Positions 36,971-54,802 of a stretch of 64,000 nt of DNA are shown in pieces. Location of the stretch: assembly GCF_004168035.1 (NCBI RefSeq), contig NZ_SDPU01000025.1:1-64000 (forward strand), in the 5' to 3' direction. A model generated the notes under the pieces. The model was not told where the DNA came from and did not search any database. It saw only the letters and a program-made list of their open reading frames with translations. Origin of the DNA: Nocardioides iriomotensis (lineage in GTDB: Bacteria; Actinomycetota; Actinomycetes; Propionibacteriales; Nocardioidaceae). How positions within the stretch are numbered: the stretch's first letter is position 1; each line of letters opens with the position of its first letter. The translations under genes were made by a program, and so were the position numbers.

Positions 36971-38110
36971 TCAGCCCGCCGGCGGGACGTACCCGGTCGG
37001 GTCGTCGCCGAGGTCGACGATCGCGGCGACCGGGCCGCCGCCGTCGGGGCCCTGGTGAGCGGCCGAGACGGACACGAACACCGCGGGGTCGCCGGTCACG
37101 GCCGCGGTCACGCCCCCGACGGCGGACTTGATCTGGCGGTGCCAGTGCACGTCGGAGTCGTCGAGCATCGCGTTGCGGCGGCCGGCGACCTGGCCGTCCT
37201 GGCTGGCCTCGCACTTGAGGAACACGTTCACCAGACGCCCGCCCAGGTCGTCGCGGTGCGGCCGCTCGGGCAGGTCCAGCCCGGCGTCGCGGATGGCGGC
37301 CCAGATGCCGTCCTGGTCGAGCGCGTCCTTCATGACCGAGTGGCCGATCCGGAACCGGCCGCCGACGCCGCGGGCGTTGCCGACCACGACGACCTGCGCC
37401 TGGTCGAGCTCGACGCCGCTGGAGCAGGAGGCGACCGAGGAGAACAGCGACCGGTCGTGCATGACGTCGGCGTCGGTCGGCATCTCGATCTCGCCGAGGG
37501 CGACGGCGATGCCGAGCGCCGTGCAGCCGTTGGAGAGGTCCATCGACTCATGCGTGTGCTCGGTCCACACGGTCTTGCCGCGGCTCTTGGCGTCGCGGAT
37601 CGTGTGGATCGTCAGCAGCGGGGTCTTGGTCTGCACGTAGTGCACGTCGGCGGGGTCGGTGATGCCGGCGCGCTCCATGGCGACCTTCACGGCGTCGGCC
37701 ACCTTCGACACCATGGCGACGCGGCCGATGTCCTCGGGCGCCAGCACCTCGCTCATCGCGAACCCGACGGTCAGCCGCGGCTCGTCGGTCTGCTCCGCCT
37801 TGTCCGCGGGCATCGTAGCGAAGATCGTGGCGTGCGGGCTGATGATGCCGTCGGTGCCGCCCGACCAGACGATCGGGACCTGCTTGACCTCCTCGGCGCT
37901 GCGGCTGCCCTTCGCGACGAGCACCTCGCGGAAGGCACGGTCGGCGATGATCCGGGTGTAGTCGTTGACGCCGCCGTTGCCCTCGGTCTTCCCGATCACG
38001 GCGATCACCCGGTCGGCGTCGAGCGTCCCGTCGTCGATCAGGTCGGCGAGGCCGCTCGCGTCGGACACGGTCAGGATCGGCACCTTGCGCACGTCGATGG
38101 GCTCAGGCAT
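36971..38110 (-). CDS. ring-opening amidohydrolase (barbiturase / cyanuric acid hydrolase family)
   Basis: A 379-residue member of the AtzD/barbiturase family, which opens cyanuric acid or barbituric acid rings. The three repeating domains each supply a Ser-Lys pair: [18 protein letters not shown] in the first, [20 protein letters not shown] in the second, and [20 protein letters not shown] in the third. The Lys in VQTKTPLL and the late IKSAVGG fit the catalytic lysines. The last gene of a ten-gene coupled run; its ATG overlaps the carbamate kinase end by 8 bp. In this context barbiturate is the most likely substrate. Cyanurate remains possible. Confidence 0.85.
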
Positions 38111-39071
38111 CGGGATCTCCCTCAGGGTTGTTGTCGGGTACGACGACGGTGCCGGAGCGACCGTCGGGCTCGGTGACGGCGGCGACGATGGAGTCGAGGT
38201 CGGTGATCACGGCACACCGGCCGCCCTGCTCGACGAACCGGCAGGCGGCGTCGACCTTCGGCCCCATCGACCCGCTGGCGAAGTGGCCCTCCCCGGCCAG
38301 CTCGCGCATCCGGCTCACGGTGACGCGGCCGACGTCCTCGGCGTCGGGCTCGCCGTACCGCAGCACCGCGTGGGGTACGTCGGTCGCCACCACGAGCACG
38401 TCGGCGGCGACGGTCCGGGCGAGGAGGGCCGCGCCGAGGTCCTTGTCGATGACCGCCTCGACGCCGCGGTGGGACTCGCCCTCGCGCACGACCGGGATGC
38501 CGCCGCCGCCGTTGGCGACCACGACGAACCCGGCGTCGACGAGCGCGAGGGTCGCGGCGGCGTCGAGGATCTCGCGCGGCTCCGGCGAGGCGACCATGCG
38601 CCGCCAGCCCTTGGCGCCGCGGTCCTCCCAGGTCTCGCCGTGCTCCACGAGCAGGGCGGCCTCGTCGGCGGGCAGGAACCGGCCGATCGGCTTGGTGGGC
38701 CGCTCGAAGCCCGGGTCGTCGGCGTCGACCAGGGTCCGCGTCACGACGGTCGCGCTCGGCCGGCGGACGCCGCGACGGGCGAGCGCGTCGTCCAGGGCGT
38801 TCATCAGGATCAGGCCGAGGGTGGCCTGGGTCTGGGCACCGCACCAGTCGAGCGGCACGGGCGGCACGACGGCCGCTGCGAGCTCGTTCTTGACCAGCAG
38901 GTTGCCGACTTGCGGCCCGTTGCCGTGGGTGAGGACGACGTCGACGCCCTCGGCCACGAGGTCGGCCACCGACTCCATCGCGACCTTGGCGGCGGCGACC
39001 TGGTCCTCCGGCCGGGCCCGACCGTCGGGACCGGTCATCGCGTTGCCACCCAGGGCGAGCAGGACCCTCAT
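38103..39071 (-). CDS. carbamate kinase
   Basis: Converts carbamoyl phosphate plus ADP to ATP and carbamate in the catabolic direction. The 322-residue amino-acid kinase fold has LLALGGNAM at the N-terminus, [28 protein letters not shown], and the late [18 protein letters not shown] typical of ArcC/YbcF. No arginine deiminase genes are nearby. In this operon its carbamoyl phosphate would come from the FdrA-type complex encoded divergently. The C-terminal tail beyond DLDSIVAAV is slightly long. Coupled to the SDR gene upstream by a one-base overlap. Confidence 0.93.
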
Positions 39072-39808
39072 CAGCGACCTCCTGCCACGCGCAGCACGGC
39101 GCCGGTGGCGTACGGGCAGGCGTCGCCCAGCAGCCACACGATCGCCTCGGCGACCTCCTCGGGCTCGCCGACGCGGCCCAACGGCACGTGCGGGGCGACG
39201 CGCTCCATCCGGCCCGGCTCGCCGGCGGCCTCGTGGATGCCGGTGCGCACGATGCCGGGGGCGACGGCGTTGACCCGGACTCCGTATGGCGCCGCCTCGA
39301 CGGCGAGGCCCTGGGTGAGCGCGTCGACGCCGGCCTTGGCGGCGGCGTAGTGGACGTACTCCCCCGGTGCCCCGAGCGTCGCGGCGCTGGATGAGACGTT
39401 GACGATCGTGCCGCCGTCGTTGGCGGCCAGGTCCCGCAGCGCGCGCCGCGCGCAGTAGACGGCGGCGGTGAGGTTGACGTCGATGACCCGCTGGATCACG
39501 TCCGTCGGGGTGTCGACCATGGGGCCGATGTGCAGGGTCGCGCCGGCGTTGTTGACCAGCCCGGTCAGCGTCCCGGCCTCGGCGGCGGCGTCGAACAGCG
39601 CGTCGACCTGGTCGGGGTCGGTGACGTCGGCCTTGACCGTGCGGCAGGTGGCACCGGCCTCCTCGACGTGCTTGCGCGTCGTCTTCGCCGCGGTGTCGTC
39701 GCCGGCGTAGCCGAGCACCAGGTCGTGGCCGTCGCGCGCCAGGCGTCGGGCGGTCGCGGCCCCGATGCCCCGGGTGCCGCCGGTGATCACGGTGAGCGGT
39801 CTGGTCAT
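39071..39808 (-). CDS. short-chain dehydrogenase/reductase
   Basis: A 245-residue SDR. Cofactor loop TGGTRGIGAATARRLA, NNAG in LVNNAGATLHIGP, the catalytic Ser in NVSSSAATLGAPG, and YxxxK in YVHYAAAKAGVDAL. The two-residue spacing and DVNLT motif are classic. The Gly/Arg loop favours NADP. Its reaction in the island is unknown; a malonate-semialdehyde or oxo-acid reduction is one idea. It overlaps hyuB by 4 bp and carbamate kinase by 1 bp. Confidence 0.9.
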   Translation of the reverse strand: MTRPLTVITGGTRGIGAATARRLARDGHDLVLGYAGDDTAAKTTRKHVEEAGATCRTVKADVTDPDQVDALFDAAAEAGTLTGLVNNAGATLHIGPMVDTPTDVIQRVIDVNLTAAVYCARRALRDLAANDGGTIVNVSSSAATLGAPGEYVHYAAAKAGVDALTQGLAVEAAPYGVRVNAVAPGIVRTGIHEAAGEPGRMERVAPHVPLGRVGEPEEVAEAIVWLLGDACPYATGAVLRVAGGR

Positions 39809-41733
39809 CGCAGGAAGTCCACCTCCGCCGACGTCGCACCGGCCGCGAGGGTGGCGTAGCCGGGGCCGCGGTCGAAGAACGGCTCGTCGCCGGTGCGCGC
39901 GCCGCGCAGCTCCTCGCGCAGGGCGTCGCTGGCGGGCTCGTCGGCGACAGGCGCGTCGGCCGACCCGGTCACGACCACGCCGTAGTCGTCGCGGGCGCCG
40001 TCGCGCGACACCTTGCCCCACAGCACGTCGCGGAGGACCTCGTCGTACGGACGCTCGAGGGGGTCTCCCCAGCCCCCGCCGCCGGTGGTCCGGATCCGGA
40101 TCACCTCGCCGGCGGCGACCGGCTCGGCGTCGGCCAGCGCGTCGACCTCGCGCTCGCGCGGCCCGCCGGGGTCGATCGTGACCTGGAACGGCCGTCCCGC
40201 CTTGCCGCCCTTGACGCCCCAGCAGGCCAGGATCGAGCGGTCGGCGATCGACATGAAGTGCGCGTCCTTCAGCATCCGGATGTGCTTCTCGTAGCCGAGG
40301 CCGCCGCGGTACCGCCCGGCGCCGCCACTGTCGACGGCCAGCCCGAGCCGCTCGACGACGAACGGGAAGCGTGCCTCGGAGAACTCGCTCGGCAGGTTCC
40401 GGGAGTCGGGCACGACGTGGATGGTGTCCTCGCCGTCGGCGTAGTAGCGGCCGCCGGAGCCGCCGCCGAGCACTTCGCGCATGAGGTACGGCGCGCCCTC
40501 GAGGTCGGTGCCGTAGACGCCGGTGTAGCGGATCGTCTCCTGGTCGGCGGGCATCCGGCCGTCGACCGCCTTGGCCAGCACGCCGGCGAGCACGCCGAGC
40601 AGCCGCAGGATCACGAACGTGCGCGCGTTGGTCGGCGCCGGGAACTCCGGGGTCAGCAGCGTGCCCTTGGGCGGGAAGCGCATCTCGATCAGGGGTACGA
40701 CGCCCTCGTTGACGTCGAGCTCGGCCATCCGCTCCGGGGTGTCGGCGAGGTTGCGCAGGATCGGCGCCAGCCACTTCTTGAGGAAGTTGCCGTCGGCGTA
40801 GTCGCCGCAGTGGTTGATCGGGCCCTTCGCCTGCGGGCTGGTGCCGTGGAAGTCGAAGACCAGCCGCTCGCCGTCCGGGTCGTCGGCCGGCGTCCGGGTC
40901 AGCGTGATCCGCTGGGTGTGCAGCCTGGGCTCGTCGACGCCGTCGTGCTCGGCGTAGTCCTCCCACACGTACGTGCCGACCGGGATCTTGGCGAGGATCT
41001 CGCGGCGGAACGTCGCCGTGGTCTTGTCGAGCACCGCGTCGAAGCAGGCCTCGACCGTCGTACGGCCGTAGCGCGCGAACAGCTCGGCCATCCGGCGCGC
41101 GCCCATCAGGCACGCGGAGCACTCGGCGTCGAGGTCGGCGGCCAGCGACTCGGGCATCCGGGAGTTGCGGGTCATGATCTTCAGCGCCGCCTCGTTGGGC
41201 ACGCCCTGGTCCCACAGCCGGATCGGCGGGACCATCAGGCCCTCCTCGAAGACCGAGGTGGCCTGGCTGGGCATCGACCCCGGTACGGCGCCGCCGATGT
41301 CGTCGTGGTGGCCGAACGCCTGCACGAACGCCACCACCTGCGGCCCCTGCCCGTCGCCCTCGTCGTGGAAGACCGGGGCGGTGACGCAGAGGTCGGGGAG
41401 GTGGCCGATGCCGCCCTCGGAGAGGTAGACGTCGTTGTGGAAGAACACGTCACCCGGCCTCATCGTCTCGAGCGGGTAGTCCCGGACGACCGGGTGCACG
41501 AGCGCGGAGTACGACCGACCGGTGAGCTTGCGCAGCCGGCGGTCGTGGATGCCGGCACGGTAGTCGTGGGCGTCGCGGATCATCGGGCTGCGCGACGTCC
41601 GGCCGATGGCGGTCTCCACCTCCATCTCGACCGAGGCCAGGTAGCCCTCGACGATCTCGACGAGCACGGGATCCACCCCCGGGTGGTCGAGGGTGCGCCG
41701 TCCTGAGCCTGTCGAAGGGTCGAGGCCACTCAT
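39805..41733 (-). CDS. hyuB: hydantoinase/oxoprolinase B-type subunit
   Basis: A 642-residue HyuB/hydantoinase B family protein. It pairs with HyuA to make an ATP-dependent enzyme that opens cyclic amides or imides (N-methylhydantoin, 5-oxoproline) or carboxylates ketones in related systems. Family features are TSRSPMIRDAHDYRAGI near the N-terminus, GHLPDLCVTAPVFH, and FPFVVERLGLAVDSGGAGRY with RGGLG. The first ~19 residues (LDPSTGSGRRTLDHPG) are encoded by a common dispersed repeat (core CCTGAGCCTGTCGAAGG at 41702-41718), so the true domain begins at about VDPVLVEIVE. Coupled to hyuA (4-bp overlap). Confidence 0.87.
   Translation of the reverse strand: MSGLDPSTGSGRRTLDHPGVDPVLVEIVEGYLASVEMEVETAIGRTSRSPMIRDAHDYRAGIHDRRLRKLTGRSYSALVHPVVRDYPLETMRPGDVFFHNDVYLSEGGIGHLPDLCVTAPVFHDEGDGQGPQVVAFVQAFGHHDDIGGAVPGSMPSQATSVFEEGLMVPPIRLWDQGVPNEAALKIMTRNSRMPESLAADLDAECSACLMGARRMAELFARYGRTTVEACFDAVLDKTTATFRREILAKIPVGTYVWEDYAEHDGVDEPRLHTQRITLTRTPADDPDGERLVFDFHGTSPQAKGPINHCGDYADGNFLKKWLAPILRNLADTPERMAELDVNEGVVPLIEMRFPPKGTLLTPEFPAPTNARTFVILRLLGVLAGVLAKAVDGRMPADQETIRYTGVYGTDLEGAPYLMREVLGGGSGGRYYADGEDTIHVVPDSRNLPSEFSEARFPFVVERLGLAVDSGGAGRYRGGLGYEKHIRMLKDAHFMSIADRSILACWGVKGGKAGRPFQVTIDPGGPREREVDALADAEPVAAGEVIRIRTTGGGGWGDPLERPYDEVLRDVLWGKVSRDGARDDYGVVVTGSADAPVADEPASDALREELRGARTGDEPFFDRGPGYATLAAGATSAEVDFLR
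41702..41718. repeat. dispersed GC-rich repeat inside the hyuB start
   Basis: CCTGAGCCTGTCGAAGG, a sequence found repeatedly in many actinobacterial and proteobacterial genomes. Here it lies in frame within the first codons of hyuB and supplies residues STGSG. Confidence 0.6.
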
Positions 41734-43796
41734 GTCGCCCTCCCGATCACCAGGTTGCCGTAGCCGTCCACCCGCGCGGAGAAACCGGGGTGCAGCGGGA
41801 CCGTCGAGCTGAACTCCTCGAACACCGCCGGACCGGTCACCTCGTCGCCGGCGCCGAGCCGCGCGCGGTCGTAGGTCGGCGTCTCGACCCAGTCGTCGTC
41901 GAACCAGACCTTGCGGCTGCCGGTGCGGGCGGCCTCGGCACCCTTGCCGGCGGTGATCTCGCGCAGCTCGGGCTTGCGGATCGGGCCGATGCCGGTGACC
42001 CGGAGGTTCACCCACTCGACCTCCTGGCGTGCGTCTCCGCGGAAGTCGTAGTCGTAGAGCGCCTTGTGCTCGTCGTGGAACCGGTCGGCGACGGCGGCGA
42101 CGAGCTCGTCGGTGACCGGACCGTCCGGCACGTCGACCCGCACCTCGTAGGCCTGGCCGTAGTAGCGCAGGTCGGCGGTGCGGACGAACTGCCGGTCGGC
42201 CGGGTCGAACCCCTCGCGGGCCAGCGCGGCGTCGGCCTTGGCGGTCAGGTCGTCGAGCACGCACTGGACTTGAGCCGGGTCGAGCGCGGACTGCCGGCTG
42301 ACGGCGGTCTGCACGTAGTCGTTGCGCACGTCGACGGTGAGCAGGCCGTACGCCGACAGGTTGCCGGGGTTGAGCGGCACCAGCACGCCCTGGAGACCGA
42401 GGATGTCGACCAGCCGGCAGGCCAGCAGCGAGCCGGAGCCGCCGAACGTGACGAGCGTGAAGTCGCGGACGTCGAGGCCGCGGTTGACGGTGACCTGCCG
42501 GAGCGCGTTGGCCTGGTTCCACGCGGAGATCTCGAGCACGCCGGTCGCGCAGGCCTCGAAGCCGAGCCCGAGCCGGCCGGCCAGGTCGCGGATGCCGCGG
42601 TCGGCCAGGTCGACCTCGAGCGGAACCTCACCGCCGAGCAGGTGCGGCGGGATCCGACCGAGCACGGCGTGCGCGTCGGTGATCGTCGGATCCTCGCCCC
42701 CCTTGCCGTAGCAGATCGGGCCGGGGTCGGCGCCGGCCGACTGCGGGCCGACCTTCAACGTCCCCTCGGGCGAGATCCAGGCGATGGAGCCGCCGCCGGC
42801 GCCGACGGTGACGACGTCGATCATCGGGATCTTGCTCGGGTAGGCACCGACGTGGCCCTCGGTCGTCAGCGCGGGATGGCCGTCGATCACGACGGTCACG
42901 TCGGTCGACGTACCGCCGCCGTCGCACGTGACCACCTGGGCGAAGCCGGCCCTCTCGGCGACCACCGCGGCACCGAGCGCGCCGGCCGCCGGTCCGGACA
43001 GCACGGTGGTGATCGGCTGGTGCACGACCTCGTCGGCCGAGAGCACGCCGCCGTTGGACTTCATCACGTAGAACGGGACCGCCCGGGCCGCGTCGAGCGT
43101 GCGGAGGTGCCCGGCGATGTTCTCGACGTACCGGCGGATGTTCGGCTTCACCGCGGCGTCGACGAGGGTGGTGACGGAGCGTTCGTACTCGCGGTACTCG
43201 CGCAGCACCTCGCTGCTGATCGACACGATCGCCGCGGGGTGCTCGCGGGCGAGCACGTCGCGCATCCGGAGCTCGTGGGAGTCGTCGGTGTAGGAGTGCA
43301 GGAAGCAGACACCCAGCGTGTTGATTCCCTGGTCGCGGAACCAGCGCGCGACGGCGACGGCGGCGTCCTCGTCGAACGGCCGGATCTCGCTGCCGTCGAC
43401 GGCGAGCCGTCCGGGGACGGTCTTCACCCGGTGGGCGGGGACGATCCGGTCGGGCTTCACCCAGAAGTAGGAGTTGCCGTAGCCGTCGGGCACGGACTGC
43501 CGGGCGATCTCGAGCATGAACTCGTAGCCCTCGGTGGTGACGAAGCCGAGGTTCTCGACCTTGCCCTCGAGCAGCTTGTTGGTCGCGACGGTCGTGCCGT
43601 GGCTGACCGCGGTGACCGCGTCGCCGGCCAGCCCGAGGTCGCCGAGCACCTTGTGCACGCCGGTCATGAACCCGACCGCGGGGTCGTGCGGCGTCGACGG
43701 CGTCTTGGTGACGGCGAGCTCGCCGGTCTGCTCGTCGACGGCGACCACGTCGGTGAACGTGCCGCCGGTGTCGATGCCGATCCGGATCCGGCTCAT
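41730..43796 (-). CDS. hyuA: hydantoinase/oxoprolinase A-type subunit
   Basis: A 688-residue ATP-binding subunit of the ASKHA fold. IGIDTGGTFTDVVAVDEQT is phosphate loop 1. VTCDGGGTSTDVTVV and VTVGAGGGSIAWIS are the further nucleotide loops. The C-terminal part fits the family (GLDVRDFTLVTFGGSGSLLA). Works with HyuB on a cyclic amide or a related substrate at the cost of ATP. Which substrate it takes in a pyrimidine-type pathway is unclear: hydantoin-like or imide intermediates are possible. Coupled to both neighbours. Confidence 0.9.
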   Translation of the reverse strand: MSRIRIGIDTGGTFTDVVAVDEQTGELAVTKTPSTPHDPAVGFMTGVHKVLGDLGLAGDAVTAVSHGTTVATNKLLEGKVENLGFVTTEGYEFMLEIARQSVPDGYGNSYFWVKPDRIVPAHRVKTVPGRLAVDGSEIRPFDEDAAVAVARWFRDQGINTLGVCFLHSYTDDSHELRMRDVLAREHPAAIVSISSEVLREYREYERSVTTLVDAAVKPNIRRYVENIAGHLRTLDAARAVPFYVMKSNGGVLSADEVVHQPITTVLSGPAAGALGAAVVAERAGFAQVVTCDGGGTSTDVTVVIDGHPALTTEGHVGAYPSKIPMIDVVTVGAGGGSIAWISPEGTLKVGPQSAGADPGPICYGKGGEDPTITDAHAVLGRIPPHLLGGEVPLEVDLADRGIRDLAGRLGLGFEACATGVLEISAWNQANALRQVTVNRGLDVRDFTLVTFGGSGSLLACRLVDILGLQGVLVPLNPGNLSAYGLLTVDVRNDYVQTAVSRQSALDPAQVQCVLDDLTAKADAALAREGFDPADRQFVRTADLRYYGQAYEVRVDVPDGPVTDELVAAVADRFHDEHKALYDYDFRGDARQEVEWVNLRVTGIGPIRKPELREITAGKGAEAARTGSRKVWFDDDWVETPTYDRARLGAGDEVTGPAVFEEFSSTVPLHPGFSARVDGYGNLVIGRAT

Positions 43797-45235
43797 GAGG
43801 ACGGCTCCTGGTCGAGGTCCGGGCGCCGCTCGCCGACGCGGGTGAGCTGCTCGAAGGCGTGCGCGACCTCCAGCAGCCGGCGCTCGGCCTTGGGCGGGGC
43901 GACGATCTGGACGCCGACCGGCCAGCCCTCGCTGGTGAACCCGGCCGGCACGCTGATCGAGGGGCAGCCGGTGACGGTGATGAGGAAGTTGGAGCGCATC
44001 CAGTCGAGGTAGGTCTCCTGGGCGCGTCCGTTGATGGCGTGCGGGTACTCCTCGTCGGCGTCGAACGGCGGCACCTGGCTGACCGGCAGCAGGAGCACGT
44101 CGTACCGCTCGAAGAACCGCCGCGCCCGTTCGCCGAGGCTGGTCATCCGCTGCTGGGCGGTCCAGACGTCGGCGCCGGTCAGGTGCTCACCGGCCCGGAT
44201 GTTGTCGGCGAGGGAGGCCTTGAACCCGTCGGGTCGCTTGGCCAGCATCTGGCCGTACGTCGCCTGGAACAGCCACGCCCGCAGCGTGCGGAACGCCTGC
44301 TCGGCACCGGTCACGTCGAGGTGGGCGTGCTCGACGTGGGCGCCGGCGGACTCGAAGACCGCGGCCTGCTGCTCGACGACGTGCGCCACCTGGCGGTCCA
44401 CCTCGAAGGCGCCGCCGAGGTCCGTCGACAGCGCCACGCGCAGCCCGGCCAGCCGGCCCTCCAGCGGGGGCGCGAACGTCGCGCCCGGGTCGTCGAGCGA
44501 CATCACGTTGCGCCGGGACGGGCCGGCGACCACCGACAGCAGCAGGGCGAGGTCCTCCACCGTGCGCGCCATCGGGCCGCTGACCGAGGTGAGCTCCCAG
44601 TAGTTGGTGGCCGGCCACTTCGGCACCCGTCCGACGCTGGGCCGCAGCCCGACGACGTTGCAGAAGGAGGCGGGGTTGCGGAGCGAGCCGCCCATGTCGC
44701 TGCCGTCGGCGAGCGGCACCATGCCGGAGGCGAGCGCGGCCGCCGCTCCCCCGCTGGACCCGCCCGCGGACCGGGTCAGGTCGTAGGGGTTGCGGGTGGT
44801 GCCGAAGATCGGGTTGAACGTGTGCGACCCGGCGGCCCACTCGGGCACGTTGGTCTTGCCGATGGTGACGGCCCCGGCCCGCCGGATCCGCTCGACGACC
44901 AGGTCGTCCCGGCGGGAGACGTAGTCGTGCCGCAGCGGCGACCCGAACGTGGTCGGCCAGCCTGCGGCCTCGTGGGTGTCCTTGAAGGCGTGCGGCAGAC
45001 CGTGCAGCGGTCCGACGCGCTCCCCCTGTGCGAGCGCCTCGTCGGCCGCGGCCGCGCCGTCGCGGGCCCGCTCCTCGTCGAGCGACACGATCGCGTTGAC
45101 CCGCGGGTTGACCGCGCGGATCCGGTCGAGGTGCAGGTCGAGCAGCTCGCGGGCGGAGATCTGCTTGGTCGCGACCGCCGCGGCCATCGCCCGGGCGGAC
45201 GACCAGATGGTCAGGTCGGTGGTGGTGGGGGTCAA
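43793..45235 (-). CDS. amidase signature family enzyme
   Basis: A 480-residue amidase with the Ser-cisSer-Lys triad. The lysine is in LPHAFKDTHEAAGWP, the cis-Ser in TRSAGGSSGGAAAALASG, and the nucleophile Ser in ADGSDMGGSLRNPASFCN. It hydrolyses a linear amide in the cytoplasm. In the proposed route it would cleave malonamate or ureidomalonate (a ureidomalonase-type step), which is an inference from position. The start is TTG, overlapping the coxG stop. Confidence 0.88.
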   Translation of the reverse strand: MTPTTTDLTIWSSARAMAAAVATKQISARELLDLHLDRIRAVNPRVNAIVSLDEERARDGAAAADEALAQGERVGPLHGLPHAFKDTHEAAGWPTTFGSPLRHDYVSRRDDLVVERIRRAGAVTIGKTNVPEWAAGSHTFNPIFGTTRNPYDLTRSAGGSSGGAAAALASGMVPLADGSDMGGSLRNPASFCNVVGLRPSVGRVPKWPATNYWELTSVSGPMARTVEDLALLLSVVAGPSRRNVMSLDDPGATFAPPLEGRLAGLRVALSTDLGGAFEVDRQVAHVVEQQAAVFESAGAHVEHAHLDVTGAEQAFRTLRAWLFQATYGQMLAKRPDGFKASLADNIRAGEHLTGADVWTAQQRMTSLGERARRFFERYDVLLLPVSQVPPFDADEEYPHAINGRAQETYLDWMRSNFLITVTGCPSISVPAGFTSEGWPVGVQIVAPPKAERRLLEVAHAFEQLTRVGERRPDLDQEPSS

Positions 45236-45858: not shown

Positions 45859-48262
45859 GACCCTGCCTCCTGGTTCTCGAGCCTCAGGTGGAACAGCTCG
45901 CTCGGCGAGATCGGCATCCGCCGGATGGTGATGCCCTCAGCATCCTCGATCGCGGCCGCGATGGCAGCCGCCCCGGGGATGACCCCGGCCTCACCGGCGC
46001 CCTTGACGCCGAGCGGGTTGAGCGGCGACGGGGTGACGAGGTGGTCGATCTCGACCTCCGGCACCTCCGATGCGTAGGGCATCAGGAAGTCCATGAACGA
46101 CGCGTTGAGGAGCTGCCCGTCGGGGGCGTACTCCATCCGCTCGTAGAGCGCTCCCCCGACGCCCTGCGCCACGCCGCCGTGGATCTGGCCCTCGACGATC
46201 ATCGGGTTGATCAGGGTGCCGCAGTCGTGGACCACGCAGTAGCGCAGGACCTTGATGTCGGCGGTGTCCGGGTCGGTCTCGACGACGACGGCGTGCATGC
46301 CGTTGGCGAACGTCGACCGTGGCGGCGAGTAGAACTGCGACGCCTCCAGGCCAGGCGACTCGCCCTCGGCGACGGGCGGTTTGTCCGGGTCTGCCGGTGC
46401 GGCGAACTGGGTGGCGCGCTTGGCGGCCTCGTCGAAGGCGTAGCGCAGCGGGTTGGACAGCACGGCCACCGCGCCGAGGTCGACCGACGCGCCGTTCTCA
46501 CCGGTGCCCTTGACCCGGACGTTCCCGTCGACGATCTCGAGGTCCTCCACGGCGGCCTCGAGCGCGTCGGAGGCGATCCGCAGCGCCTTCTCGCGTACGG
46601 CGCGCGCGGTGACGGCGACGGCGGAGCCGGACATGACGGCGGTGCGCGAGGCGAACGTGCCGACGGCGTACTTGAAGCGGCGGGTGTCGCCGGTGGTCAC
46701 CCGGATCCGCTCGAACGGCACGCCGAGCTCGTCGGCGACGATCTGCGCGAGCATCGTCTGGTGGCCCTGGCCCTGGGTGGTGAGACCGGTCGACACGACG
46801 ACGGTGCCGTCGGTCTCGACCCGGATGTGGCCGCCCTCGTAGGGACCGACGCCGGTGCCCTCGACGTAGCAGGCCATCCCGATCCCGACCCGGCGTCCCT
46901 CGGCGCGCGCCTGCTCGCGGTAGGCCGCGAAGTCGTCCCAGCCGACGAGCTCCTTGAGCTTGGCGAGCGAGCCCGGGAAGTCGCCGGAGTCGTAGAGCAG
47001 CTGGCGGCCGTCCTGGAAGATCAGCCCCTGGTCGTAGGGCATCTCGTCGGGCTGGATGAAGTTGCGCTCCCGCACCAGCGCCCGGTCGAGGCCGAGGTCG
47101 GCGGCGATCGCGTCCATCGTGCGCTCCATGACGAAGCAGCCCTGCGGCCGGCCGGCGCCGCGGTACGGCGTGACGATGACGGTGTTGGTGTAGAGGCTCT
47201 CGAACTCGACGCGGTAGGCGCCGGGCTTGTACGGCCCGAGCAGCTGCGTCGAGGTGATGATCGGGACGATCAGGCCGTACGGGATGTACGCGCCGTGGTC
47301 GTGCCAGAACTTCACCGACAGGCCGAGCAACCGGCCCTCGTCGTCGTACCCGACGCGCACGTGGTGGAGCTGGCCGCGCTCGTGGGCGGAGGAGACGAAG
47401 TGCTCGCGGCGATCCTCGGTCCACTTGACCGGGCGGCCGAGCCGGAGCGCCGCCCACGGGACGAGCACCTCCTCGGGCCAGGGGTGCACGATCTTGACGC
47501 CGAAGCCGCCGCCGACGTCGGGCGTGACCACCTCCACCCGGTCGACCGGCAGGTTGAGCTTGGCCGCGACCGCCTGCCGGACGCTCGTGGAGGTCTGGGT
47601 GCTGGTGTGCACGGTGAGCGACTCGTCGTCGGCGTCCCAGCGGGCGTGGACGCCCTTGCCCTCCATCGGCATCGACGCGCTGCGCTCGATGGCGAGGTCG
47701 AGCTCGAGCCGGTGGGGTGCGGCGTCGATGGCGGCGTCGGCGTCGCCGGTCTCCTGGACCATCCGGGCCGCGACGTTGCCGGGTACGTCGTCGTGCACGA
47801 GGTGCTCGGCGGCCCGGGCGGCCTCGACGCCGACGATGGGGGTCAGGAACTCGTAGTCGACCCGGATCCGTTCGACGGCGTCCTCGGCGGCGTACCGGTC
47901 GCTGGCCACGACCATGACGATCGCCTCGCCGACGTGGTTCACCTCGCCGTTCGCCAGGGCGTGCTGGGTGCGGCCGTGGGTCAGCGTGGGGTGCGGGATG
48001 AGCAGCGGCAGCGCCTGCGCGACGCGGGTGCCGTGCTCCTCCTCGTCGGCGACGAGGTCCTCGTAGGTGTAGATCGCCACCAGTCCCTCGACGTCGAGCG
48101 CGTCGGTCACGTCGACGTCGACCACCCGGGCGTGCGCGTGCGGGCTGCGCACGAACGCGACCTCGAAAGCGTCGTGGCCGAGGTCGTCGAGGTACCGGCC
48201 GTTACCGGTGACCAGGCGTGGGTCCTCGACCCGCTTGACGGGCTCGCCGACCATGCGCGTCG

Positions 48263-48266
<4 letters not shown>
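45855..48266 (-). CDS. molybdenum hydroxylase large subunit (form II CoxL / xanthine dehydrogenase-like)
   Basis: An 803-residue Mo-containing catalytic subunit. The active-site loop reads PYRGAGRPQGCFVMER, the form II-type (no selenocysteine-like Cys, no AYRCSFR), so it is not a classical CO dehydrogenase. GVKGAGEAGVIPGAAAIAAA carries the base catalyst Glu, and VTPDVGGGFGVKIVHP is the pterin-binding segment. It hydroxylates an unknown substrate, probably an N-heterocycle such as uracil. Electron flow goes through CoxM (FAD) and CoxS (2Fe-2S). It overlaps coxS by 4 bp. No molybdenum maturation genes (xdhC, mobA-like) are in the window. Confidence 0.9.
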
Positions 48267-48765
<499 letters not shown>

Positions 48766-48769
<4 letters not shown>

Positions 48770-49650
48770 GCCGCGCTCCTCCGGGTGCCACGCGCCGCTT
48801 CGTGCGCCTGGGCGACGGCGCGCTCGGTGAGGACGTGGGCGAGGTGCCGCCGGTACGTCGCGGTGGCGTGGATGTCGTCCTCGGGATCGATGGCGGCGTC
48901 GACGAGCTCGCGGGCGCGGGGCGTGTCGACGCCGCCGCCGGAGCCGCTCACCGCGGGACCGAGGTCGACGACGACGGGGCCGGCGCCGACGGAGATGAGC
49001 CCGACGCGCGCGCCGGTGACGGCCAGGTCGGCGTCGACGGTGACGAGGGCGGCGACGCCGCACATGGCGTAGTCGCCGTGCCGGCGGGCGAGCTCGACGA
49101 AGGCGGAGCCGGTGCCGGCGGGCGGCCGGCGGAAGGTGGCGGCCACCGCGACCTCGGCGTCGGCGTGCTCGGTCTCCATCGGACCGACGAAGAAGTCGGC
49201 GGCCCCGACGGAACGGCTGCCGTGCGGGCCGACCAGTTCGACCTCGCCGTCGAGGACCGCGAGCACGGCGGTCATCTCCGCGGCCGGGTCGCCGTGGACC
49301 AGGCTGCCGACCGTCGTACCGCGGTTGCGGATGGTGGGGTGTGCGACCTGGCCGAGGGCCTGGCGCAGCAGCGGCAGCGCGGCGAAGGCCGCGGCGTCGT
49401 GCTCGACCCGGGAGTGCCGGGCCAGGGCGCCGACCCGGACACCGGTGGAGGTGACCTCCACGGTGTCCAGGCCGGCCACATGGTTGATGTCGACCAGGTG
49501 CCCGGGTGCGGCCAGCCGCATCGACATCAGTGGGACGAGGCTCTGACCGCCCGCGAGCACCTTCGCACCCTCGCCGGCGTGCGCGTCGAGGAGCTGCACG
49601 GCCTCCTGGACGGTGGCCGGTCGGTGGTAGGTGAACGCGGGCGGTTTCAC
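48766..49650 (-). CDS. molybdenum hydroxylase FAD subunit
   Basis: A 294-residue CoxM-like FAD-binding subunit. VLAGGQSLVPLMSMRLA (first FAD loop) and TIRNRGTTVGSLVHGDPAAE (second) match the family consensus. It passes electrons from the Fe-S subunit to an acceptor. First gene of the ten-gene coupled run. The GTG was chosen because AAGGAGG lies 5 nt upstream and the protein then starts VKPPAFTYHRP as in homologues. A longer frame upstream is open but does not fit. The permease ends 68 bp upstream, so it may be co-transcribed. Confidence 0.9.
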
Positions 49651-49718
49651 GAGCCTCCTTCGCCCTGGACGGGCCTGCTCACGGCATGGTCCGAGCACGA
49701 GACGGGCAGGCTACGCCT

Positions 49719-51161
49719 TCAGTGGGCGCGGTGCGACCCGTCTTCGTGACCCGGCACGTCCTCGTCGTGGTGAACCCCCGTGTGACCCACCGCGAGCATC
49801 GTGCCGTCGTCCTTGAGCTCGGCCGGGGCGACCGCGCGGGCCAGGTGGTACATGACGAGGCAGACGATGGTGCCGAGCGCGATGCCGGCGAGGGAGAAGT
49901 CGTTCGTGATCTTGAGCGTGGTGTCGCCGATCGCGATGATGATGCCGGCGGCGACGGGGACGAGGTTCACGGGGTTGGCGAAGTCGACCCCGTTCTCCTT
50001 CCAGATCTTCGCGCCGAGCAGGCCGATCATGCCGTAGAGGACGACCGTGATGCCGCCGAGCACGCCGCCGGGGGTGGCGGAGACGATCGCGCCGAACTTG
50101 GGGCTGAGGCCGAACAGGATCGCGACCAGCGCCGCCACGTAGTACGCCGCGGTCGAGTAGACGCGGGTCGCGGCCATGACGCCGATGTTCTCGGCGTACG
50201 TCGTCGTCGGCGAGCCACCGACCGACGAGGTGAGCACGGTGGCGAAGCCGTCGGCGGCGATGGCGCGGCCCATGACCGGGTCGAGGTCGCGCTTGGTCAT
50301 CTCCGCGACGGCCTTGACGTGGCCGGTGTTCTCGGCGACGAGGGCGATCACGGCCGGCAGCATCAGCAGGATGAACGCGACGTTGAAGGCCGGCGCGTGG
50401 ATGCCGACGACGCCGTTGGCGAGGTCGCTCACCGGCGGGAAGCCGACCCAGTCAGCCGCCTTCACACCGTCCCAGTTGACCCGCCAGTGGGTGGTGACCT
50501 TGCCGGCGGCGGGGTCGAACGAGGTGATCGGGCCGAAGATCCGGTCGAAGAGCCACGACAGCACGTAGCCGAAGATCAGGCCGAGGAAGACTGCGATGCG
50601 GCCGAGGAACCCCCGGAACCCGACCGCCATCAGGATGACCGCGGTCATCGTGAGCAGCGCGACCCACTGGTCCTGCGGCCAGTAGATGTCGGCGACGACG
50701 GGAGCGAGGTTGAAGCCGATCAGCATGACCACGGCACCGGTGACCACCGGGGGCAGCACCCGGTGCAGGACGGCGGACCCGAGGAAGTGGATCAGCACAC
50801 CGATGATCCCGAGCACGATGCCGGCGACGAGGACCGAGCCGGTGACGTCCGCGGCGTTGCCGCCTTGGGCGTAGATCGCCGCCGCACCACCGACGAACGA
50901 CGCCGACGTGCCGAGGTAGCTCGGGACCTTGCCCTGCACGATCAGCAGGAAGCAGATCGTGGCGATGCCGCTCATCATGATCGCGAGCTGGGCGTTCAGG
51001 CCCATGATCAGCGGGAACACGAACGTGGCGCCGAACATCGCGACCACGTGCTGGGCGCCGAGCCCGACCGTCCGTCCCCAGGACAGCCGCTCGTCCGGTG
51101 CCACTGCCGCACCGAGAGGCGGCGTCTTTCCGTCGTAGACGACCTTCCAACCAAACGCCAT
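49719..51161 (-). CDS. uraA: uracil-type NCS2 permease (uracil/xanthine transporter family)
   Basis: A 480-residue NCS2 transporter, about 14 membrane segments. The substrate motifs are of the uracil type: IALVAENTGHV (first conserved Glu) and TTTYAENIGVMAATRVYS (second, with ENIG, which is seen in UraA rather than in XanQ/UacT). It brings a pyrimidine or similar base into the cell. The C-terminal tail is His/Asp-rich. GGGAGGCCTGCC before the ATG is a good ribosome site. Leads the minus-strand catabolic operon, facing the DUF2877 operon. Confidence 0.92.
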   Translation of the reverse strand: MAFGWKVVYDGKTPPLGAAVAPDERLSWGRTVGLGAQHVVAMFGATFVFPLIMGLNAQLAIMMSGIATICFLLIVQGKVPSYLGTSASFVGGAAAIYAQGGNAADVTGSVLVAGIVLGIIGVLIHFLGSAVLHRVLPPVVTGAVVMLIGFNLAPVVADIYWPQDQWVALLTMTAVILMAVGFRGFLGRIAVFLGLIFGYVLSWLFDRIFGPITSFDPAAGKVTTHWRVNWDGVKAADWVGFPPVSDLANGVVGIHAPAFNVAFILLMLPAVIALVAENTGHVKAVAEMTKRDLDPVMGRAIAADGFATVLTSSVGGSPTTTYAENIGVMAATRVYSTAAYYVAALVAILFGLSPKFGAIVSATPGGVLGGITVVLYGMIGLLGAKIWKENGVDFANPVNLVPVAAGIIIAIGDTTLKITNDFSLAGIALGTIVCLVMYHLARAVAPAELKDDGTMLAVGHTGVHHDEDVPGHEDGSHRAH

Positions 51162-51197
51162 GGCAGGCCTCCCTGCTCACAAGCTCCGGCCCGAGAC

Positions 51198-51218
51198 CCG
51201 ACCTCACGTCGAGGTCGG
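51198..51218. promoter_or_regulatory. inverted repeat in the island's divergent promoter
   Basis: CCGACCTC-ACGTC-GAGGTCGG, a perfect 8-bp inverted repeat with a 5-bp spacer, 37 bp from the permease ATG. Candidate operator. Confidence 0.5.
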
Positions 51219-51237
51219 CCGCCGGCGCACCCGTCAC

Positions 51238-51255
51238 CCGGGTCGGTCGACCCGG
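51238..51255. promoter_or_regulatory. second inverted repeat in the divergent promoter
   Basis: CCGGGTCG-GT-CGACCCGG, a perfect 8-bp inverted repeat with a 2-bp centre, between the two divergent promoters. Candidate operator for an unlinked regulator; no regulator gene is in the island. Confidence 0.5.
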
Positions 51256-51318
51256 TTCAGGGTCACTGTGCACCCGGGCCCGTGGTTCGGCCAGCACCGA
51301 AAGGATCGACACGCTGCG

Positions 51319-51324
51319 TAATCT
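51319..51324 (+). promoter_or_regulatory. -10 box TAATCT, leaderless DUF2877 start
   Basis: TAATCT-GGCGCC-ATG. The ATG at 51331 is 6 nt after the box. Confidence 0.6.
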
Positions 51325-51330
51325 GGCGCC

Positions 51331-51999
51331 ATGGGAGCGTTCCTGCCCTGCGCCGCGTCGTCGCTCGTGTCCGGTGTGCTGGGTTCCGCCGACCGGTGGG
51401 TCGAGGCGGCGCGCACCCGGGTGAGCGTGCATCTCGAGACCGGTTCCCCGGATGTCCCGATTGTCTGTGTCGGACTGCCCGAGGCGATCCGGCTGCCGTA
51501 CGGCGTGGTGGTGGAGGCGCTCCCCGACGGGCCGGTGTCGCTGGCTCCCCGCCGCTGGTGGCGGCCCGACCGGCCGGCCGGCCTGGCTCCCCCGGCGCCG
51601 GCGCGGATCGCCCGCTGGACGCGCCCGCTGCCGCCGCCGGACCCCGCGCGGCTGCTCGGCCGGGGCGCCGGCCTGACCCCGGACGGTGACGACGTGCTCG
51701 CCGGTCTCCTGGTCGCGGCGGCGGCGGTCGACGACCCCCGGCTGGGCGAGTGGCGCGCCGCGACCCGGTCGGCGCTGGCGGCCCGCCGTACGACGGCTGT
51801 GTCGGTGGGCATGCTGCACGCCGCCCTCGACGGGTGGTCCGCTCCACCGCTGGCCGGCGCCGTCCGGGCGCTGTGCGGACCGGACGACCCGACGCCGGCC
51901 GTCGACGCCCTGCTCGCCGTCGGGCAGTCGTCGGGCCGGTCGCTGCTCGACGGGGTGCTGTACGTTCTCGCGTCCCAGCCCTGGGAAGGAGCCGCATGA
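51331..51999 (+). CDS. DUF2877 protein (AllH/YlbF-like subunit)
   Basis: A 222-residue DUF2877 protein. The signature GRGAGLTPDGDDVLAGLLVA matches the family's GxGxGLTPxGDD. In E. coli the corresponding gene YlbF sits with FdrA and YlbE near the allantoin genes, and these three are reported to form oxamate carbamoyltransferase. It presumably forms the same complex with the next two gene products. The ATG is 6 nt after TAATCT, so it is probably leaderless. Coupled to fdrA by an ATGA overlap. Confidence 0.82.
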   Translation: MGAFLPCAASSLVSGVLGSADRWVEAARTRVSVHLETGSPDVPIVCVGLPEAIRLPYGVVVEALPDGPVSLAPRRWWRPDRPAGLAPPAPARIARWTRPLPPPDPARLLGRGAGLTPDGDDVLAGLLVAAAAVDDPRLGEWRAATRSALAARRTTAVSVGMLHAALDGWSAPPLAGAVRALCGPDDPTPAVDALLAVGQSSGRSLLDGVLYVLASQPWEGAA

Positions 52000-53411
52000 A
52001 GCAGGTGGACGTCCGGAAGGCGTACGTCGACTCCGTGACCCTGATGCAGGTGAGCCGGCGGGTCGCGGACCTCGACGGGGTCGCCGCCGCGCTGGTCGCG
52101 ATGGCGACCGACCTCAACCTCGAGCTGGCCGCCGGGATGGGCTTCGACGTCCCGGCGACGGTCTCGGGCAACGACATGCTGGTCGCGCTCGACGTCGCCT
52201 CCGACGACGTGCTGGCCGCGGCACGGACCGAGGTCGACGCCGCGCTCGCCGCGGCGTCCCGGCCGGCCGCGGGCGGCTTCGGGGACGCGCCGCCCCCGCC
52301 GACGATGCGGGCCGCGACCCGTGACGCCGACCCCGAGACGGCCGTGGCGCTGGTGTCGACGCCCGGGCAGTACGCCTTCGCCGACGCGCTCGACGCGGTC
52401 GACGCCGGACTGCTGACGATGGTGTTCAGCGACAACGTGTCCGTCGCCCAGGAGGTCGCGCTCAAGCGGCGCGCGGGCGAGACGGGCGCCCTGGTGATGG
52501 GCCCCGACTGCGGTACGGCGGTCGTCGGAGGCGTCGGGCTCGGGTTCGCCAACGTCGTCCGGCCGGGACCCGTCGGGATCGTCGCCGCCTCGGGCACGGG
52601 CGCCCAGCACCTGCTCGCCCTGCTCGACGGGGCCGGCGTCGGGGTGTCGCACTGCCTCGGGGTCGGCGGGCGCGACCTGTCGGCCGACGTCGGCGGGCTG
52701 TCGACGCTGCGCGCGCTCGACCTGCTCGACGCCGACGAGGCCACCGAGCTGGTCGTGGTGATCTCCAAGCCACCGGCGCCGGAGGTCGCCGAGAAGGTGC
52801 GCGCGCACGCCGCCTCGCTGGGCACTCCCGTCGTGTTCGGGCTGCTCGGCCCCGGGCAGCCCGACCTGACCGCCACGGCCGCGGCCGTCGTGGAGGCGGC
52901 CGGCGGCACCTGGACCGCGCCGGAGAGCTGGGGCGGAGCCGTGTCCTCACGGCGCGGTCAGGGCGTGCTCAAGGGTCTGTTCGTCGGCGGCACCATGCGC
53001 GACGAGGCCCGGCTGGTCGCGGCCTCCGCCTTGGGGCTGGAGCCCGCGTCTCTGGAGATGGTCGACTTCGGCGACGACGAGTACACCCGCGGTCGGCCGC
53101 ACCCCATGATCGACGGCTCGCTGCGGCTCGACCGGATCGCGCACGAGACCGATGACCCGACCTGCGGCGTGCTGCTGCTCGACGTGGTGCTCGGTCTCGG
53201 CTCCGACCCCGACCCGGCCGCGGCGCTCGTCGAGCCGGTGCGGCGCGCGACGGCGGCCGGCCTGCCCGTCGTGGTCAGCGTCATCGGGACGCGCGACGAC
53301 CCGCAGGACCTGCGCCGTACCGCCGGAGCGCTCACCGACGCCGGCGCCGCCGTCTTCCTGTCCAACGCCGCGGCCGCCCGGGCCGCCGCCGACCTCGCGG
53401 GAGCCTCGTGA
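51996..53411 (+). CDS. fdrA: FdrA-like subunit of a putative carbamoyltransferase
   Basis: A 471-residue protein of the FdrA family, with a succinyl-CoA-synthetase-like CoA-binding fold. AYVDSVTLMQVSRRV is the FdrA N-terminal signature. SDNVSVAQEVALKRRAGE and MGPDCGTAVVGGVGLGFAN, followed by VGIVAASGTGAQHL, are the nucleotide-phosphate-binding type loops, with a SHCLGVGGRDLSADVGG region. In E. coli FdrA is a subunit of the enzyme that makes carbamoyl phosphate from oxalurate. The ribosome site GGAAGGAGCC precedes the ATG. Coupled to both neighbours. Confidence 0.85.
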   Translation: MKQVDVRKAYVDSVTLMQVSRRVADLDGVAAALVAMATDLNLELAAGMGFDVPATVSGNDMLVALDVASDDVLAAARTEVDAALAAASRPAAGGFGDAPPPPTMRAATRDADPETAVALVSTPGQYAFADALDAVDAGLLTMVFSDNVSVAQEVALKRRAGETGALVMGPDCGTAVVGGVGLGFANVVRPGPVGIVAASGTGAQHLLALLDGAGVGVSHCLGVGGRDLSADVGGLSTLRALDLLDADEATELVVVISKPPAPEVAEKVRAHAASLGTPVVFGLLGPGQPDLTATAAAVVEAAGGTWTAPESWGGAVSSRRGQGVLKGLFVGGTMRDEARLVAASALGLEPASLEMVDFGDDEYTRGRPHPMIDGSLRLDRIAHETDDPTCGVLLLDVVLGLGSDPDPAAALVEPVRRATAAGLPVVVSVIGTRDDPQDLRRTAGALTDAGAAVFLSNAAAARAAADLAGAS

Positions 53412-54802
53412 TGCGCCTCGGCACGCCCACCACCGTCCTGACCGCCGGCGCCGAGCTGCTCGCCGACGCGGTCGCGCAGCAGGCCGTCGACACCCGCCGC
53501 GTCGCGTGGCAGCCACCCGAGGGCGACGCCGACGCGCTGGCCGCGGTGATGGCCGACCCGCGCCGGGCCTCGGCCAACGAGACCGCACTGTCCCGGATGC
53601 TCGCGGCCGAGGCGTCGCTCGTCGACGTGAGGCCGGCGTCGGAGGCGCTCGGCCTCGGGCCGGGCGAGTTCCTGCACGCCGGTCCCCCGGTCACCTGGGA
53701 GCGCGCCTCCGGCCCGATGAAGGGCGCGCTGATCGGCGCGATGCTGCTCGAGGGGCTCGCCGAGACGCCGGAGGCGGCCGAGGCCGCGCTCGCCGCCGGC
53801 GACGGCGTGGCCTGGGAGCCGTGCCACCACCGTGGCGCGGTCGGCCCGATGGCGGGCGTGGTGACCCCGTCGATGTGGGTGTTCGAGCTGCGTGACGACG
53901 TGCACGGGAACGCGTCGTGGTGCTCGCTGAACGAGGGGCTCGGCAAGGTGCTCCGGTACGGCGCCTACGGCCCCGAGGTGGTCGACCGGCTGCGCTGGAT
54001 GGGCGACGTCCTCGGGCCGCTGCTGCAGACCGCCGTCCGCCGTACCGGCGCGGTCGACGTGAAGGCGATCGTCGCGCAGATGATCCAGATGGGCGACGAG
54101 GGCCACAACCGCAACCGGGCCGGGACGCTGATGTTCCTGCGCGAGGTGCTGCCCGCACTCGTCGACTCGGGCGCGCCGTCGGACGACGTCGCGGAGGCGG
54201 TGCGGTTCGTGGCCGGCAACGACCACTTCTTCCTCAACCTCGTGATGCCCGCGTGCAAGCTGCAGACCCGCGCCGCGGCCGGGATCGACGGGTCGTCCGT
54301 GGTGACCGTGATGGCCCGCAACGGCACCGACTTCGGCATCCAGGTGTCCGGCACCGGCGACGCGTGGTTCACGGCGCCGGCCAACACGCCGGAGGGGCTC
54401 TACCTCGGGGCCTACGGTCCCGACGACGCCAACCCCGACATCGGCGACTCCGCGATCACCGAGACGGCCGGCATCGGCGGCATGTCGATGGCGACCGCGC
54501 CCGCGATCGTCCGGTTCGTCGGCGGCTCGGTGCCCGACGCGCTGGCCACGACGCAGCGGATGTACGGCATCACCGTCGGCGAGAACCCCGCCTTCGGCAT
54601 CCCGATCCTCGAGTTCCGCGGCGCCCCGACGGGCATCGACGTCACCTCCGTCGTCCGGTCGGGCGTGCTCCCGCAGATCAACACGGGGATGGCCGGCCGG
54701 GTCGCCGGGACGGGCCAGGTCGGCGCCGGCCTGGTCACGCCCCCGATGGCCTGCTTCACCCAGGCCCTCGACGCGCTCGCGGCGCGGGCGCAGCAGCCGT
54801 AA
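53408..54802 (+). CDS. DUF1116 protein (AllG/YlbE-like subunit)
   Basis: A 464-residue DUF1116 protein. NRNRAGTLMFLREVLPALVD, and later GNDHFFLNLVMPACKLQTRA, are family segments. EAPRIGGMS-type AGIGGMSMATAPAIVRFVG also fits. In E. coli it corresponds to YlbE. The stop codon TAA falls inside a diverged copy of the 3'-end element's conserved block (CAGCCGTAACGCGAGG). It starts with GTG, in frame with ATG at the next codon, overlapping fdrA. Copy 3a of the element follows 15 bp after the stop. Confidence 0.83.
   Translation: MMRLGTPTTVLTAGAELLADAVAQQAVDTRRVAWQPPEGDADALAAVMADPRRASANETALSRMLAAEASLVDVRPASEALGLGPGEFLHAGPPVTWERASGPMKGALIGAMLLEGLAETPEAAEAALAAGDGVAWEPCHHRGAVGPMAGVVTPSMWVFELRDDVHGNASWCSLNEGLGKVLRYGAYGPEVVDRLRWMGDVLGPLLQTAVRRTGAVDVKAIVAQMIQMGDEGHNRNRAGTLMFLREVLPALVDSGAPSDDVAEAVRFVAGNDHFFLNLVMPACKLQTRAAAGIDGSSVVTVMARNGTDFGIQVSGTGDAWFTAPANTPEGLYLGAYGPDDANPDIGDSAITETAGIGGMSMATAPAIVRFVGGSVPDALATTQRMYGITVGENPAFGIPILEFRGAPTGIDVTSVVRSGVLPQINTGMAGRVAGTGQVGAGLVTPPMACFTQALDALAARAQQP

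Follow-up and report, generated by a model that had tools for sequence, protein, structure and literature searches.

A conserved gene cluster of Nocardioides iriomotensis with a barbiturase and an AllFGH-type complex: a proposed route of uracil catabolism through ureidomalonate phosphorolysis

The DNA analyzed in this study (referred to as the window; 64,000 nucleotides of contig NZ_SDPU01000025.1 of Nocardioides iriomotensis, contig C18 in our numbering, from a genome of 4.71 Mb with a listed completeness of 100%) carries, at positions 36971..54802, a cluster of 14 genes which we propose to be responsible for the breakdown of uracil via barbiturate. The cluster is composed of two divergent halves, with 11 genes on the minus strand and three on the plus strand, separated by an intergenic region of 169 bases (51162..51330) in which the promoters are presumed to lie. 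In the order of transcription, the minus-strand half encodes (i) an NCS2 nucleobase permease, closest to RutG (49719..51161; PF00860, Xan_ur_permease), (ii) the three subunits of a molybdenum (Mo) hydroxylase, namely the FAD subunit CoxM (GTG start, 48766..49650; PF00941, FAD_binding_5, and PF03450), the [2Fe-2S] subunit CoxS (48263..48769; PF01799, Fer2_2) and the large subunit CoxL of a proposed uracil dehydrogenase (45855..48266; MoCoBD_1/2), (iii) a CoxG-type Mo-enzyme accessory protein (45232..45858; PF06240, COXG), (iv) an amidase-signature amidase with a TTG start, proposed to be a malonamate amidohydrolase (43793..45235; PF01425), (v) the hydantoinase/oxoprolinase subunits HyuA (41730..43796; PF01968/PF05378, Hydantoinase_A) and HyuB (39805..41733; PF02538, Hydantoinase_B), (vi) an SDR oxidoreductase (39071..39808; PF13561/PF00106), (vii) a catabolic carbamate kinase (CK; 38103..39071; AA_kinase, NF009007), and (viii) a barbiturase with the Toblerone fold and the Group VI signature (36971..38110; PF09663, Amido_AtzD_TrzD, E = 2e-145).

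The plus-strand half encodes AllH (DUF2877; 51331..51999; PF11392, E = 7e-21), AllF (FdrA; 51996..53411; PF00549, Ligase_CoA, FdrA-type) and AllG (DUF1116; 53408..54802; PF06545, E = 4e-96). Nine of the ten minus-strand junctions overlap by 1–8 bases, the exception being a 68-base gap between the CoxM and NCS2 genes, and the AllH-AllF and AllF-AllG junctions overlap by 4 bases each. Every gene named in a preliminary description of this DNA was recovered, by family matches, at the place assigned to it there.

The ring-opening enzyme of the cluster is a barbiturase, as judged from its sequence. It scored 484.7 bits against PF09663 (cut-off 25), and its best phmmer match among solved structures was 5hwe 'Barbiturase' (E = 1.7e-208), with the best cyanurate hydrolase at 7e-97. 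The NCBIfam model of cyanuric acid amidohydrolases, NF052395, was also exceeded (478.5 versus a cut-off of 360), so this model cannot separate the barbiturase from the cyanurate type here. According to PMC3758960, the groups are separated by positions Asn195, His321, Lys325, Val345 and Ser/Ala346 (AtzD numbering). In our alignment these five positions read NHKVS in both the window protein and 5hwe, and RTRGG in AtzD; NHKV followed by Ser or Ala was present in all 72 close rows aligned (the window protein and 5hwe included; overlapping loci repeat some of the genes). The Ser233, Lys296 and Ser344 columns of the Ser-Lys dyads agree, under a numbering which fitted 8 of 11 reference residues (positions 42, 85 and 162 were not cleanly readable). 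The preliminary description had allowed for an enzyme acting only on cyanurate; the signature found is that of barbiturases and not of the cyanurate type, and cyanurate was rejected as the predicted substrate on account of this signature and of the nearest solved relative, 5hwe.

The three plus-strand products resemble the subunits of the E. coli AllFGH complex: AllH is 42% identical to YlbF over 114 residues, AllF is 38% identical to FdrA (nearest solved structure 3dmy, 'Protein fdrA') and AllG is 47% identical to YlbE (nearest solved structure 3clq). The window therefore holds, in one operon, homologues of all three subunits by which the E. coli oxamic transcarbamylase is recognized. The activity of the latter has been demonstrated (PMC11326118), and it is described together with the carbamate kinase AllK (PMC11326118, PMC9843812). 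The window CK is 38% identical to E. coli YbcF/AllK; it exceeded the carbamate kinase model NF009007 (301 bits, cut-off 266) and remained below the cut-off of the arcC model TIGR00746 (327 bits versus 358). The two systems thus have three homologous subunits and a kinase in common, and the chemistry which we propose they share is N-acylurea phosphorolysis. They differ in that the window AllFGH is linked to a barbiturase rather than to allantoin genes.

The permease matched best, among the NCBIfam models, TIGR03616 (RutG), with 347 bits, which is under the cut-off of that model. CoxL scored 1521 bits (cut-off 950) against NF040766, an 'exception' model named 'aerobic carbon-monoxide dehydrogenase large subunit', and 444 bits (under the cut-off of 991) against TIGR02416. 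Its active-site loop, PYRGAGR, stands opposite YRCSFR/YACSFR in 1ffu, 1n5w and 8uem, a stretch which we take to be the Cys active-site motif of CO dehydrogenases. Among solved structures, 6-hydroxypseudooxynicotine dehydrogenase and quinoline 2-oxidoreductase are the closest, and a CO dehydrogenase ranks third (398 bits versus 444 for the first). Given the replaced Cys loop and the pseudooxynicotine and quinoline enzymes at the head of the solved relatives, CoxMSL fits an N-heterocycle hydroxylase, for which the gene context suggests uracil as the substrate. The identity of CoxL as a CO dehydrogenase was rejected because of the PYRGAGR loop. The name of NF040766 is probably misleading for CoxL-type subunits lacking the Cys loop.

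We propose, with a probability of about 0.73, that the cluster encodes a uracil catabolic route via barbiturate and ureidomalonate, the latter being cleaved by AllFGH to malonamate and carbamoyl phosphate, from which ATP is formed. The NCS2 permease would import the base (uracil, perhaps also cytosine in some relatives), CoxMSL would oxidize uracil to barbiturate, and barbiturase would open the ring to give ureidomalonate (N-malonylurea). AllFGH would then convert ureidomalonate and inorganic phosphate into malonamate and carbamoyl phosphate, a step suggested by its analogy to the phosphorolysis of oxalurate to oxamate and carbamoyl phosphate. CK would use carbamoyl phosphate and ADP to generate ATP, CO2 and NH3, and the amidase (elsewhere an unrelated nitrilase-type protein) would hydrolyze malonamate to malonate and NH3. 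Several relatives also encode a CoA-transferase and a carboxyltransferase-like protein which could carry malonate to acetyl-CoA, and these genes would suit malonate as the end product. We infer all of these reactions from sequence data, above all the action of AllFGH on ureidomalonate and of the Mo enzyme on uracil.

The gene set recurs well beyond the window, in numerous soil actinobacteria. A scan for AllG returned at least 567 relatives, of which the best 80 loci were kept; in 60 of these the sequence upstream of AllG extends beyond 6 kb. Within 9 kb of AllG, an NCS2 gene (>45% identity) was present in 49 and a PucR-type regulator gene in 50 of these 60 loci, and the proximity of the NCS2 gene indicates that the grouping is not due to chance. 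Barbiturase was found in all 48 genomes searched (those of 48 of the best 80 loci), and CK adjoined it in all 30 barbiturase loci returned from that search. All nine other whole clusters contain CoxM, CoxS, CoxL, CoxG, HyuA, HyuB (79–84% identity), CK, barbiturase, AllF and AllG, the last two being called as a single frame in one case. The NCS2 gene is adjacent in seven of them, a PucR-type regulator is present in eight, and the SDR gene in one. The amidase position is occupied by an amidase-signature protein in three clusters (two of the window type, one at 31%) and by a CN_hydrolase in five, neither being called in the remaining one; among the 11 loci which reach past CoxG, six have the nitrilase, two the amidase and three neither. 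A family III CoA-transferase occurs in six of the nine clusters and an AccA/AccD-like carboxyltransferase in three (the family names of the extra genes rest on one tested member per group). A cytosine-deaminase-like gene was found in two of the nine, L112 (G004:C3:40856) and L117 (G043:C2:1025119), as well as in genome G248 (L266/L267, G248:C5:42636); cytosine therefore fits as a further substrate in relatives.

Among 393 genomes of the class, PF09663 was detected in 81 and AllG in 87, with both in 74, PF09663 only in seven, AllG only in 13 and neither in 299 (Fisher p ~1e-57, relatedness not being corrected for). In the family of the window genome, the PF09663 and AllG sets are the same 16 genomes. 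Five of the seven PF09663-only genomes hold 36–40% identical relatives of the window protein which lack the barbiturase signature; the remaining pair consists of G254, a complete genome, and G062, with a completeness of 72%. When both genes are present, they share a contig in 47 of the 74 genomes and lie within 60 kb of each other in 39. The concern of the preliminary description that these genes might not co-occur elsewhere is thus answered by a gene set that recurs in many families.

The AllG tree comprised 43 rows: the window, 25 loci from the set of 80 (each from a genome with barbiturase), 12 rows from AllG-only genomes (representing 11 of the 13, with G156 and G215 left out), four plasmid rows and E. 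coli. The AllG proteins of the 26 barbiturase genomes formed a single clade (support 100/100) and all other rows fell outside it, including that of E. coli, which is on a long branch and whose own placement is unsure. Residues specific to the clade numbered 23 in AllG and four in AllF.

An oxidative pyrimidine pathway including ureidomalonase was reportedly described by Soong et al. in 2001/2002, and a ureidomalonase activity of Rhodococcus origin is known. The window can be set beside the Rhodococcus-like family to which G079 belongs; in a search of 251 of its genomes, 15 were found to carry a barbiturase (at least 83% identity). Fourteen of these lack AllG, and 13 of the 14 have no carbamate kinase match genome-wide, the other having one match at 39%. 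In the sole AllG-positive genome, G454, CK adjoins the barbiturase. The flanks were read in 12 of the 14 AllG-negative genomes (not in G600 and G618) and revealed, in 11, a conserved amidase (77–100%) beside the barbiturase, as in L253, 16687-18165 (G511:C1:3503686), and in L231-L239, L241 and L242. Flanking sequence was available for 72 barbiturase loci, 59 of them from AllG-positive and 13 from AllG-negative genomes. CK adjoins the barbiturase in 54 of the former and in none of the latter, and the Rhodococcus-type amidase does so in none of the former and in 11 of the latter. No match to this amidase above 45% identity was found in 48 AllG-positive genomes.

The simplest reading of this contrast is that AllFGH with CK and the Rhodococcus-type amidase share one job, the consumption of ureidomalonate, by phosphorolysis or by hydrolysis; it therefore supports an action of AllFGH and CK on ureidomalonate, and makes the amidase a candidate ureidomalonase. 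PMC3758960 presents the oxidative pathway as oxidation to barbiturate followed by barbiturase and ureidomalonase. Barbiturase is common to that pathway and to the window cluster, and the Rhodococcus-like genome G511 has near its barbiturase the same NCS2, CoxMSLG, HyuAB, CoA-transferase and carboxyltransferase genes as the AllG-positive clusters. In contrast to the hydrolytic type, the window cluster contains AllFGH and CK and has no Rhodococcus-type amidase adjacent to the barbiturase, and it is predicted to yield carbamoyl phosphate instead of urea. The pathway outlined in the preliminary description is thus supported by the barbiturase signature, by the recurrence of the gene set and by the contrast between AllFGH/CK and the amidase, the activity of AllFGH in it being a prediction.

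HyuAB, whose A subunit has N-methylhydantoinase (7hk5) and 5-oxoprolinase (6yra) as its nearest solved relatives, is probably ATP-dependent. HyuA and HyuB also occur in G454 and in three of four AllG-negative Rhodococcus-like regions (G511, G626 and G489; not in the G644 stretch). Since they are kept in such regions lacking AllFGH and CK, they appear to be part of a step common to both variants and to lie outside the phosphorolysis step. An opening of 5-methylbarbiturate, derived from thymine, by HyuAB is only a guess.

Several observations weigh against the proposed route. A net ATP gain of the pathway is unproven, because HyuAB, which has no assigned role and probably spends ATP, occurs in both variants. 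The window amidase, located between CoxG and HyuA, is ~40% identical to the Rhodococcus-type amidase and might itself cleave ureidomalonate. The contrast described above has exceptions: AllG-negative G489 lacks this amidase beside its barbiturase, L139 and L146 are the remaining two of the 13 AllG-negative loci (the sequence of L146 ends at the barbiturase), and five AllG-positive loci have no CK within ~1.5 kb of the barbiturase (L145 being short on one side). In the three of these five genomes that were read further, G402, G248 and G371 (the last in two separate stretches), no CK was called in the stretches read, the rest of these genomes being unsearched. Moreover, most AllG-negative loci come from one lineage, and the barbiturase tree provides only three independent contrasts on supported branches; in random pairings CK followed AllG in 2.5 contrasts on average and never the opposite, which is too few for significance. 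Genome G254 (L196/L197, C19:42850-43959) is a real exception, with a barbiturase, no AllG in the genome, and neither CK nor the Rhodococcus-type amidase beside the barbiturase. Finally, of the 74 genomes with both genes, 27 have barbiturase and AllG on separate contigs, and eight have them on one contig at a distance of over 60 kb (1.74 Mb in G107).

The metabolic context in the window genome bears on two of the alternatives. No urease alpha match was found (urea amidolyase and other urea enzymes were not searched for), there was no match to the AllD/Ldh_2 family, for which the E. coli positive control was detected, and no dihydropyrimidinase was over the model cut-off. An allantoinase over the cut-off is encoded on a different contig, within a purine cluster (L227/L228; G000:C29:151545-164748), among genes which, named by eye, are adenosine-deaminase-like, allantoicase-like, urate-oxidase-like and guanine-deaminase-like or encode xanthine dehydrogenase subunits. 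Given the lack of AllD/Ldh_2 and urease matches and the separate contig of the purine genes, both a supply of oxalurate and a urea-based route look unlikely in this genome; a supply of oxalurate from allantoin was rejected because of the missing AllD-family match.

The window amidase could be the ureidomalonase, forming malonate and urea, with AllFGH and CK serving another compound. Its similarity to the Rhodococcus-type amidase is in line with this, as are the cluster amidases of AllG-positive genomes, which are among the 39–45% matches to the latter, and the AllG-positive clusters without a called CK. We nevertheless consider it unlikely, since the nitrilase-type protein replaces the amidase in five of nine clusters while AllF, AllG and CK stay, genomes in which the Rhodococcus-type amidase adjoins the barbiturase have no AllG and, in all but one case, no CK, and the urease search was negative within the scope given above. 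Breakdown of some other cyclic ureide, for instance a methylated or N-substituted pyrimidine, a hydantoin or cyanurate, with uracil not being the physiological substrate, is quite unlikely: the conserved, unexplained HyuAB and the pairing of cyanurate-signature relatives with FdrA, DUF1116 and CK could be read in this way, but the barbiturase signature in all close rows, the RutG-like NCS2 permease and the cytosine-deaminase-like genes of some relatives speak against it.

AllFGH might also be an ordinary oxamic transcarbamylase acting on purine-derived oxalurate and merely located beside a pyrimidine operon, as the homology of all three subunits to the E. coli complex, whose activity was shown in PMC11326118, would allow. 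The missing Ldh_2/AllD match, the distant purine cluster, the separate AllG clade (with the reservation made for the E. coli row) and the co-occurrence with barbiturase make this very unlikely. A reading of CoxMSL as an aerobic CO dehydrogenase within a loosely assembled operon is extremely improbable: the NF040766 score and the third rank of a solved CO dehydrogenase are outweighed by the replaced Cys motif, by the two better solved relatives and by the gene order kept in other genomes.

The preliminary description had named no described route which joins a barbiturase to an FdrA-type carbamoyltransferase, and our literature search likewise found none, a weak negative given that many subscription papers are outside its coverage. 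Carbamate kinase combined with barbitur- was found in clinical contexts only, ureidomalonate and a limited set of its synonyms gave nothing on this pathway beyond the barbiturase papers (apart from one DNA-repair-inhibitor context), and PMC4016543 does not mention fdrA, ylbE or barbitur-. The only paper found to combine DUF1116 with cyanuric, or carbamate kinase with cyanuric acid hydrolase, was PMC12625717, which describes nitrifier genomes with allFGHK beside biuret/triuret genes and assigns oxalurate as the substrate. AllFGH and a kinase lie near genes for ring-fragment catabolism in both cases; however, that paper does not mention barbiturase, and it reports that the nitrifier metagenome-assembled genomes have no AtzD. 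The cyanuric acid hydrolase pathways (AtzD/TrzD with biuret and allophanate hydrolases) also start from a Toblerone ring-opener, but that of the window has the barbiturase signature residues, and the sole amidase of its cluster is below the cut-offs of the AtzE and allophanate hydrolase models.

Plasmid operons of Klebsiella, Citrobacter and Aminobacter (L211, 3265-11061; L212, 8998-16639; L213, 5969-11062) encode FdrA, DUF1116 and carbamate kinase alongside a cyanurate-signature ring-opener. An NCS2 permease and DUF2877 lie between these genes in L212, and an allophanate hydrolase gene is located upstream in L211; the plasmid AllG rows occupy two separate places on the AllG tree. Carboxybiuret differs from ureidomalonate solely by NH in place of CH2, and the same chemistry could therefore apply to these operons. 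The E. coli ColV plasmid pAPEC-O2-ColV (L214, 5366-11014) carries FdrA (called in two pieces), DUF1116, carbamate kinase and cytosine permease genes. We give even odds to the broader view that AllFGH represents a general family of N-acylurea phosphorolases, paired repeatedly with Toblerone ring-openers (with barbiturase in actinobacteria, acting on ureidomalonate to form malonamate and carbamoyl phosphate, and with cyanurate-type hydrolases on proteobacterial plasmids, acting on carboxybiuret to form allophanate and carbamoyl phosphate), and that a ureidomalonase (the barbiturase-adjacent amidase) replaces this branch in Rhodococcus-like genomes. If so, hydrolytic ring opening would feed ATP formation.

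To our knowledge, no sequences have been assigned to the uracil dehydrogenase, ureidomalonase and ureidomalonate carbamoyltransferase activities. If the proposed route is correct, CoxMSL and the Rhodococcus-type amidase would be gene candidates for the first two, a new carbamoyltransferase would be added to them, and some of the Mo hydroxylases automatically annotated as 'CO dehydrogenase' may act on uracil. The AllFGH family would then gain a second substrate class, and bacterial pyrimidine catabolism an energy-recovering branch.

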